A stretch of DNA of 64,000 nucleotides, taken from assembly GCA_016125285.1 (NCBI GenBank), contig WGMA01000002.1, positions 1 through 64,000 of the forward strand, read 5' to 3'. Within the stretch, counting starts at the first letter, position 1. Each line of letters opens with the position of its first letter. The position numbers and the translations under genes were made by a program. Below are positions 54,944 through 57,630 of this stretch, piece by piece. The stretch comes from Phycisphaera sp. Its GTDB lineage: Bacteria > Planctomycetota > Phycisphaerae > Phycisphaerales > Zrk34. A model generated the notes under the pieces. That model ran no database searches. It saw only the letters and a list, made by a program, of their open reading frames with translations, and was not told the DNA's origin.

Positions 54944-55978
54944 TTAGGCGTGCTGCGGGATGGCCAGGCTGCGGCCGACGGCGTCGGCGATCTGGGCGAG
55001 GCTGGGCATCATGTCGGCCATCTGCTTGGGGGTCAGGGACTGGGCGCCGTCGGACCAGGCATGGGCCGGGTCGTGATGGACCTCGATGATCATGCCGTCG
55101 GCGCCGACGGCGATGGTGGCGCGGGCGGCGGGGGTCACGAGGTGGGCGTGGCCGGTGGCGTGCGAGGGGTCGCCGACGACGGGCAGGTGGCTGCGGTGCT
55201 TGAGCTCGGCGATCGCGGCGATCGAGTAGGTGTTGCGGCCGAACTTCTCGAACGTGCGGATGCCGCGCTCGCAGAGGATCACGTTCTCGTTGCCGGCGGC
55301 GAGGATGTAGTCGGCGGCCTGGAGGTACTCGTCGAGCGTCATCGACATGCCGCGCTTGTACAGCACCGGCTTGGGCTGCTTGCCGACCTCGGACAACAGG
55401 GCGTAGTTCTGGGCGTTGCGGGTGCCGACCTGGAGGCAGTCGGCGTAAGACGAGACGAGCTCCACATCGGCGGGGGCGACGACCTCGGTGACGATGGGCA
55501 GGCCGGTCGCTTCGCGTGCGGCGGCGAGCATCTTCAGGCCGTCCTCGCCGTGCCCCTGGAAGCTGAAGGGGTTGGTGCGTGGCTTGAAGGCTCCGCCGCG
55601 TAAGGCGGTGGCACCGGCTTCCTTGACCATGCGTGCGGTGTTGACGATCTGCTCCTCGGACTCGACGGAGCAGGGCCCGGCGATGACCTGCAGGGCGTTG
55701 CCGCCGATGACGCAGTCCTCGCCGATGGTCACGGTCGAGGTCTGCTTGTGCAGCTCGCGTGCGGACATCTTGTACGGGGCGAGGACCTTCATCGCCTTGG
55801 ACACGCCGGGCAGGGTTTCGAAGATCGACGGGTCCTTCTTGCGGTCCTCGCCGATGACGGCGACGACGGTCAGCTCGGTGCCCTGGATGGCGTGTTCCTT
55901 GAGGCCCATCTCGCGGATCATGCCGATCACGTTGTCGATCTGGTCCTGCGTGGCGTCGGGGTTCATTACGATGATCAT
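54944..55978 (-). CDS. aroF: 3-deoxy-7-phosphoheptulonate (DAHP) synthase, AroF/AroG-II type with N-terminal regulatory domain
   Basis: A 344-aa enzyme from the ATG at 55978, preceded by GGAG. It joins PEP and erythrose 4-phosphate at the entry of aromatic amino-acid synthesis. An N-terminal ferredoxin-like/ACT-like domain (about residues 1-70) resembles that of Thermotoga DAHP synthase, which mediates Phe/Tyr feedback. Catalytic motifs are VIAGPCSVES (about 94-103), RGGAFKPRTNPFSFQG and GDPSHATGH. The leader region carries a promoter, a leader peptide with aromatic codons, an antiterminator and a terminator ending 77 nt upstream of the ATG. The gene therefore appears to be controlled by ribosome-mediated attenuation as well as allostery. 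Confidence 0.96.
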   Translation of the reverse strand: MIIVMNPDATQDQIDNVIGMIREMGLKEHAIQGTELTVVAVIGEDRKKDPSIFETLPGVSKAMKVLAPYKMSARELHKQTSTVTIGEDCVIGGNALQVIAGPCSVESEEQIVNTARMVKEAGATALRGGAFKPRTNPFSFQGHGEDGLKMLAAAREATGLPIVTEVVAPADVELVSSYADCLQVGTRNAQNYALLSEVGKQPKPVLYKRGMSMTLDEYLQAADYILAAGNENVILCERGIRTFEKFGRNTYSIAAIAELKHRSHLPVVGDPSHATGHAHLVTPAARATIAVGADGMIIEVHHDPAHAWSDGAQSLTPKQMADMMPSLAQIADAVGRSLAIPQHA

Positions 55979-56055: not shown

Positions 56056-56143
56056 AAAAAAAACCCCGATGGGTTTGAATCCGCATCGGGGCATCCTAGT
56101 CTGGCTGAGTGGTCAAAGACCGGTAGGCGTATGCTCCCTATGC
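56056..56143 (-). promoter_or_regulatory. Attenuator: antiterminator and terminator of the aroF leader
   Basis: On the minus strand CCCCGATG (56091-56084) and CATCGGGG (56071-56064) form an 8-bp terminator stem with a 12-nt loop, followed by eight T residues (56063-56056). The upstream segment GCATAGGGAGCAT (56143-56131), which spans the leader-peptide stop codon, can instead pair with ATGCCCCGATGC (56094-56083): 11 pairs with one mismatch and one bulge. This traps the 5' half of the terminator. A ribosome at the stop codon would cover the antiterminator segment, and one stalled on the aromatic codons would leave it free. Confidence 0.85.
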
Positions 56144-56200
56144 GGCGGTGTGGCCGCCAAAAAAGTAGAAGTACGCAAACCAGTAGGTGCTGCCGTTCAT
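56138..56200 (-). CDS. Leader peptide with aromatic codon run (aroF attenuator)
   Basis: A 20-residue frame from the ATG at 56200 to the TAG at 56138. Residues 6-14 read YWFAYFYFF: four Phe, three Tyr and one Trp in nine codons. That density is very unlikely by chance in this Gly/Ala/Arg-rich genome, and aromatic codons are exactly what should sense charged tRNA for this pathway. It lies between a good promoter and a terminator upstream of DAHP synthase. The ATG is 11 nt after the -10 hexamer and no Shine-Dalgarno sequence is visible, so translation may be leaderless. A GGCGG/CCGCC hairpin lies at its end. Confidence 0.88.
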   Translation of the reverse strand: MNGSTYWFAYFYFFGGHTAA

Positions 56201-56211
56201 GGTGATGCAAC

Positions 56212-56239
56212 ATTATGTCGACAAAATCGGCCGAGTCAA
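56212..56239 (-). promoter_or_regulatory. Promoter of the aroF leader
   Basis: Minus-strand TTGACT (56234-56239), 16-nt spacer, CATAAT (56212-56217); 5 of 6 consensus bases in each box. The start point would be near 56205. Confidence 0.7.
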
Positions 56240-56478: not shown

Positions 56479-57630
56479 ATGGGCAAGCTGGGCGTGGGAT
56501 TTGTCGGGGCGGGCTGGATGGGCGCGACGCTGCTGCATCGCCTGTCGGAGCGTGAGGAGGTCGAGATCCGCGGGCTGCACCAGCGGCGGCAGGACCGCGC
56601 CGAGGCGACGCTCAGCGCGATCGGCCTCCCGGCCGACCTCTACAAGCGCGACTACCGCGAGCTGCTGGACGACCCGGACTGCCACGCGATCTTCATCGCC
56701 AGCCCCAACGCGCTGCACGGCCCGCAGTCGATCGCGGCGCTGGAGGCGGGCAAGCACGTGTTCTGCGAGAAGCCGTGCGCCACGCGGTTCGCGAACTTCA
56801 TGCGGCAGATCGAGCTGGCCAGGGCGAACCCGAAGCTGATTACCTTCGTCGACTACCTGATGAATTTCGACACGATGGAGGAGCGCATCGCGGAGATGGT
56901 GCGCGAGGGCGTGTTCGGGCAGATCACGCAGGTGCAGGTCAACTACCGCCACCCGGTGAACATCGTCGGCGACAAGGCGTGGAAGCTGGACGCGTCGATC
57001 ATGGGCGACGCGATCGGCATGGGCATCATCCACTCGCTGAGCGTGATGATGAACGTGATGAAGGCGCAGGCGGCGCCGATCAGCGTGTTCGCCACGAGCC
57101 AGCGTGCGGCGGTGCGGAAGTTCGAGCCGGACGCGATGTGGTCGATCCAGGTCGGTTTCGACAACGGCGCGCAGGGGTTCTGCTTCGGCAACATCGACAC
57201 GGGCGCGAACTACGACGCGTACCACAACCTGTACGGCACCGACGGCGGGTTCGTGTTCGACTCGCAGGTCGATCGGCCGCAGAAGGTGCGCTACTGGTCG
57301 GGCACGCACACCAACAGCAAGTGGGTGTACCCGCTGGACGCCGAGCGTTGCGCGCGGGAGGGCGTGGAGGCCTGGCCGAGCGACACGACGACGCCCGACA
57401 GCGGCGACGTGATCCACCACCAGACCAGCGCGTGCGTCGAGCACTTCCTCGAGTGCGTGTCGACGGGCGTGCAGTCGCCGCTGAGCTTCATCAACTCGGC
57501 GTCGACGGCGGAGGTGGGCTGGGCGGCGCAGATGTCGGCCAAGCTCGAACGCCCGATCAGCCTGCCGCTGGACTACGACGCCGCGGCGCGGTTCTTCGCG
57601 GGACAGGAGCACGCCGGAGGGGCGGCGTGA
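56479..57630 (+). CDS. Gfo/Idh/MocA-family NAD(P)-dependent oxidoreductase
   Basis: A 383-aa protein from ATG 56479 with GGAGG 7 nt upstream; the frame opens earlier within the repeat element. The dinucleotide-binding start is KLGVGFVGAGWMG. The family motif EKP is in GKHVFCEKPCATRF (about residues 94-107), and the C-terminal alpha/beta domain follows. Such enzymes oxidise sugars, inositols or their derivatives. It is followed by a Na+/solute symporter gene, so the pair probably takes up and oxidises a sugar or cyclitol. The substrate is not readable. Repeat copies B and C lie on both sides of it. Confidence 0.9.
   Translation: MGKLGVGFVGAGWMGATLLHRLSEREEVEIRGLHQRRQDRAEATLSAIGLPADLYKRDYRELLDDPDCHAIFIASPNALHGPQSIAALEAGKHVFCEKPCATRFANFMRQIELARANPKLITFVDYLMNFDTMEERIAEMVREGVFGQITQVQVNYRHPVNIVGDKAWKLDASIMGDAIGMGIIHSLSVMMNVMKAQAAPISVFATSQRAAVRKFEPDAMWSIQVGFDNGAQGFCFGNIDTGANYDAYHNLYGTDGGFVFDSQVDRPQKVRYWSGTHTNSKWVYPLDAERCAREGVEAWPSDTTTPDSGDVIHHQTSACVEHFLECVSTGVQSPLSFINSASTAEVGWAAQMSAKLERPISLPLDYDAAARFFAGQEHAGGAA

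Follow-up and report, generated by a model that had tools for sequence, protein, structure and literature searches.

The DAHP synthase gene of a Phycisphaera sp. is very probably controlled by a ribosome-mediated attenuator of the trp/phe type, in which the supply of charged aromatic tRNAs would set expression of the enzyme; both the sequence and folding models point to this assignment. The window, a 64,000-nucleotide stretch of contig WGMA01000002.1, carries on its minus strand a promoter, a 20-codon leader ORF, an antiterminator that overlaps the leader stop codon, and an 8-bp terminator followed by eight U residues, all present and in the order that an earlier note had given (Table 1). Three features of a trp/phe-type attenuator are found here together. 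Codons for the product cluster in a short leader ORF, an intrinsic terminator lies between this leader and the structural gene, and the antiterminator excludes the terminator and has a 5' strand that a ribosome standing on the stop codon would cover. These parts are observed directly, as are their conservation, spacing and covariation in related genomes.

Table 1. Positions of the attenuator, the controlled gene and its neighbor in the window
Feature	Position	Strand	Basis or detail
-35 box TTGACT	56239-56234	minus	sequence; 16-nt spacer to -10 box
-10 box CATAAT	56217-56212	minus	sequence
Leader ORF MNGSTYWFAYFYFFGGHTAA and stop codon	56200 (ATG) to 56138 (TAG)	minus	20 sense codons, of which 8 encode F, Y or W
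Leader control codons TAC TGG TTT. TAC TTC TAC TTT TTT		minus	sequence
Region 1 and the protector hairpin it forms, GGCGGCCACACCGCC	56158-56142	minus	folding
Region 2, antiterminator 5' strand CCGCATAGGG	56145-56136	minus	spans leader stop codon
Region 3 CCCCGATGCGG	56091-56081	minus	common to antiterminator (2:3) and terminator (3:4)
Terminator 5' arm CCCCGATG	56091-56084	minus	sequence
Region 4 CATCGGGG, 3' arm of 8-bp terminator	56071-56064	minus	sequence
U8 tract of intrinsic terminator (T8 in DNA)	56063-56056	minus	sequence
Ribosome-binding site GGAG of DAHP synthase	55990-55987	minus	
Type I-beta DAHP synthase, 344 aa, controlled gene (likely start)	55978-54944	minus	NF006421 468.9 bits, TIGR01361 361.3 bits
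Upstream neighbor gene, divergent	56480-57630	plus	

The scores of the controlled gene against NF006421 and TIGR01361 both exceed cut-off. Type I-beta DAHP synthase is the better term for it, and the name "aroF" given earlier is only a label. The likely start is the ATG at 55978, which lies behind the GGAG and is where the match to orthologs begins. A 380-aa version of the ORF, obtained mechanically, opens within the terminator hairpin and is not likely to be the true protein. Gene calling by the longest ORF would put the start inside this hairpin, with 56086-55979 as the stretch concerned, and 55978 is likelier.

The combination of an aromatic leader and a terminator is rare by chance and common in front of orthologous genes. 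We scanned for short ORFs in which at least six of eleven residues are aromatic and behind which a hairpin and a T run lie. When the window is tiled in 503-nt pieces on both strands (508 tiles), the attenuator alone scores, and both hits are the same element. Orthologs were taken from nine genomes of the window's family and a 400-genome sample of its order. Leader and terminator are found together in 40 of 52 of their upstream regions versus 1 of 2080 dinucleotide-preserving shuffles, a control that disregards the shared ancestry of the loci. Examples of the leaders in relatives are MNTRFFGYWYFYFSGPQTA, MNGRFDWFAFYFSRGQTA and MNERSFFFGYFWFDQTHTALGTE, and a Pfam scan of five leader peptides returned no match. 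About eight of the 52 orthologs do not have such a leader. Two other sampled families of the order and most of a third gave mostly weak matches (~30% identity), which are probably KDO8P synthases, and type I-beta DAHP synthase is probably absent there. Hairpins are frequent in short, G+C-rich DNA such as this, so that one could picture a plain constitutive terminator, such as the end of an upstream transcript, next to a chance ORF. This explanation is extremely improbable. The upstream neighbor is divergent and a promoter intervenes, and the terminator is therefore not part of an upstream transcript. A chance terminator and ORF is refuted by the retention of both parts in the orthologs at the frequency given above.

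Base pairing between the leader end and the terminator is also maintained. In the window, folding of the whole leader gives z = -2.73, region 2 can pair with CCCGATGCGG (56090-56081) at nine of ten positions, and this antiterminator duplex alone is significant against shuffles (p = 0.025). When the leader end of each genome is paired to its own terminator 5' arm and compared with shuffles, the native duplex reaches p < 0.05 in 32 of 42 genomes of the order and in 11 of 15 more distant planctomycetes. In a covariation alignment of the leaders that was built from sequence only, 91% of cells are paired for the terminator and 70% for antiterminator 2:3 versus 25-36% in slid versions of the latter (25-50% for slid versions of the two pairings overall). 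The antiterminator has 38 both-sided changes against a shuffle maximum of 31; its pair at columns 62:134, for instance, is G-C in 21 sequences and A-U in 10. The 1:2 protector hairpin has no covariation support in the alignment over the order; it is clear in the family of the window and weak in its sister family. Members of the window's family have almost the same 2:3 strands (CCGCATAGGG / CCCCGATGCGG), and in most of them the TAG falls within region 2. In the rest of the order, region 2 precedes the leader stop codon. The earlier note had proposed asking whether relatives keep the aromatic codons and the pairing. Both are conserved across the order, which supports its reading of the element as ribosome-mediated trp/phe-type attenuation.

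The spacing of these parts is conserved in one respect. In 28 of 40 leaders, region 2 begins 16 nt after the first base of the final aromatic codon. From the start of region 2 to the end of the stop codon there are 20 nt in 27 of the 40 and 8 nt in four, the window's included. The distance to the control codons is therefore kept while the stop codon moves, and the conserved distance is the one that a stalled ribosome measures. A ribosome with a codon in its A site extends ~13 nt past the first base of that codon, so that a 16-nt spacing would leave region 2 just free during a stall. The codons themselves are biased. Phe codons are TTT rather than TTC at a ratio of 131:49 in the leaders versus 13:52 in the DAHP synthase genes (p ~1e-13), and Tyr is encoded by TAT in 41 of 64 cases versus 18 of 77 in the DAHP synthase genes of the same set. 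This excess of U-ending codons is consistent with selection either for slow decoding that is sensitive to starvation or for RNA free of structure.

These observations also bear on a TnaC-like mechanism, in which the nascent aromatic peptide would arrest the ribosome and a free metabolite would be sensed instead of tRNA charging. The leader peptide is partly conserved, with a GYFWF-like pattern, as this mechanism would favor. However, the order and identity of the aromatic residues differ between genomes and families, the conserved spacing is that between region 2 and the last aromatic codon, and a peptide-level mechanism has no need of a U-ending codon bias. We consider arrest by the peptide very unlikely.

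The promoter suggests how translation of the leader might begin. A TTGACN-like box and a NATANT-like -10 box are found upstream of all 43 leaders of the order, mostly with a spacer of 16 or 17 nt, and the ATG lies 6-11 nt from the -10 box in 40 of the 43 genomes. This gap leaves a 5' UTR of roughly 0-5 nt with no space for a Shine-Dalgarno sequence, so leaderless translation is predicted and the leader mRNA is probably leaderless. For the window, transcription is predicted to start at ~56206-56204, which would give a 5' UTR of ~4-6 nt. The leaders of the E. coli trp, pheA and pheST attenuators are Shine-Dalgarno-led; attenuators of Corynebacterium glutamicum are reportedly leaderless transcripts, as described by Neshat et al. 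in 2014. The short gap between -10 box and ATG and the spread of the element beyond the order had both been missed by the earlier note. A probable leaderless start raises the question of how ribosome and polymerase are synchronized when loading occurs on a bare 5' AUG.

From this layout we infer the transcription start, leader translation, termination and starvation response as follows. RNA polymerase would start at the leader AUG or a few nucleotides before it, and a ribosome would load onto the nearly leaderless 5' end. As long as charged tRNAs for Phe, Tyr and probably Trp are available, the ribosome should reach the UAG and cover region 2, which would let 3:4 form and end transcription at the U8 tract. 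If an aromatic tRNA is scarce, the ribosome would wait at a control codon and leave region 2 free, 16 nt past the last of these codons; 2:3 could then form before region 4 is made, and polymerase would enter the gene. If the ribosome is absent altogether, the 1:2 hairpin may mask region 2 and the terminator would form.

A ribosome-occlusion model is compatible with these states. In this model, the RNA made before region 4 is folded while 31 nt around the ribosome are kept single-stranded. The antiterminator probability for the window is 0.28 without a ribosome and rises to 0.68-0.87 when one of the eight aromatic codons, whichever it is, holds a ribosome; it is 0.00 at the stop codon, a low value that is partly a consequence of geometry. 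The antiterminator forms upon stalling in all 39 leaders folded in this way, with mean probabilities of 0.63 for the free RNA, 0.83 at the best stalled codon and 0.13 at the stop codon. The window's family is predicted to be mostly closed when untranslated and the sister family mostly open. The switch test was moved to this pre-terminator RNA from full-length equilibrium folding, where only the window and six relatives switch (7 of the 39) and the complete terminator outcompetes the antiterminator in most relatives. Co-transcriptional kinetics must therefore be assumed, as in the classical model. At full-length equilibrium, the last three control codons of the window (Tyr, Phe and Phe) switch fully and the fourth from last switches partly.

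Which amino acids are sensed is a separate matter. Phe codons occur in all 43 leaders, Tyr codons in 40 and Trp codons in 38, with all three present in 36. Codon content is thus compatible with the suggestion of the earlier note that all three aromatic amino acids are sensed, and such sensing is plausible. It is also possible, although we lean against it, that the attenuator in practice senses mainly Phe (and Tyr) and that the Trp codon is incidental. Phe accounts for 180 of the 288 codons in the aromatic clusters, and the aroF attenuator in C. glutamicum, whose leader has Phe-Tyr-Phe, was reported to respond to Phe and not to Tyr (PMC11802643). Among the eight control codons of the window, the single Trp codon comes second, seven codons ahead of the last one, and it is predicted to be a weaker switch. 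Caution on Trp is warranted because this codon hardly switches in the full-length equilibrium model, where the antiterminator probability is 0.02 versus 0.83 at the last Phe codon. On the other side, the pre-terminator model gives 0.73 at the same Trp codon, and a residue that is so widely retained, and that immediately precedes the last control codon in 24 of the 43 leaders, is unlike an incidental one.

T-box and metabolite riboswitch elements control aromatic genes in Bacillota, and an element of this kind for an aromatic compound is another candidate here. Neither the T-box covariance model nor any curated Rfam leader family matches the window or its relatives at the gathering threshold, and permissive E-values return chance-level hits only. 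The pre-terminator transcript is also ~110 nt long and mostly taken up by the ORF. We give such a riboswitch next to no credence and retain ribosome-mediated attenuation as the explanation.

Ribosome-mediated attenuation seems to be general in the window's lineage. A Leu-rich leader ORF, MDRNAYQNDGLLLSLVLLLSASGG, lies ~240-90 nt upstream of leuA in the window's genome and is followed by a strong terminator with a T run; most other genomes of the family have similar leuA leaders and terminators. Upstream regions of ilvB have short ORFs rich in Val, Ile and Leu, some of which end in a PVAVRRR-like sequence, and a strict scan of these regions passed no convincing terminator. No Trp- or Phe-rich leader with a terminator was seen upstream of trpE and pheA in the window's family, and these branch-point genes therefore seem to be without this type of control.

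Beyond the order, sampling of the class and phylum turned up a similar leader and terminator in about ten more planctomycete families. Many Clostridia have a similar leader before the same kind of DAHP synthase gene. These clostridial leader ORFs (for example, ...FYSFFYFIFWGFFFSAGYLFCKK...) also have a terminator, whose 5' arm often contains CTCATT while the leader end contains ATGAGT or AATGAG, and they have no Rfam or T-box match. One ancient leaderless attenuator might control entry into the aromatic pathway across Planctomycetota, with a similar one in Clostridia; it would integrate the charging of the tRNAs for Phe, Tyr and Trp at DAHP synthase and replace separate control of the terminal branches, a tentative idea that we would put somewhat short of even. 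The element makes a clean prediction for control of the first step of aromatic synthesis in planctomycetes, and it supplies a new RNA family for annotation. Its 16-nt rule is a comparative gauge of the edge of the stalled ribosome in these bacteria.

Several described systems resemble this attenuator. A 2010 survey of premature terminators, which added a case from Firmicutes, stated that until then Proteobacteria and Actinobacteria had been the only groups with known leader-peptide systems (PMC2965389). No planctomycete attenuator of this type was found in the open-access literature, which misses most subscription papers, in agreement with the earlier note, which knew of no described example in planctomycetes; classical translation-coupled attenuation is here extended to Planctomycetota. 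The trp, pheA and pheST attenuators of E. coli are named in PMC11802643. Like the element described here, they combine product codons in a leader peptide with alternative 1:2, 2:3 and 3:4 pairings, but the genes under their control belong to terminal branches or encode a tRNA synthetase, and each uses one amino acid. The uORFC-13-1 motif of Acholeplasma (24 sequences from one genus plus environmental ones; PMC8632094) lies upstream of aroF and, by its description, likewise places a candidate uORF with one or more Phe codons and then a terminator before DAHP synthase; unlike the window's leader, it has a ribosome-binding site. The nearest relative is the aroR-aroF attenuator of C. glutamicum (Neshat et al. 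2014, doi 10.1016/j.jbiotec.2014.05.033), which was predicted in PMC4046766 and described in PMC11802643. It also has an aromatic-codon leader and a terminator before DAHP synthase, and stalling permits read-through. Although the two are alike by description, the C. glutamicum leader belongs to another phylum and carries Phe-Tyr-Phe, whereas that of the window has eight aromatic codons including Trp. The kind of attenuator is itself known; new, as far as searched, are its occurrence in this phylum, its probable leaderless start, its cluster of eight codons for three amino acids and its wide spread.
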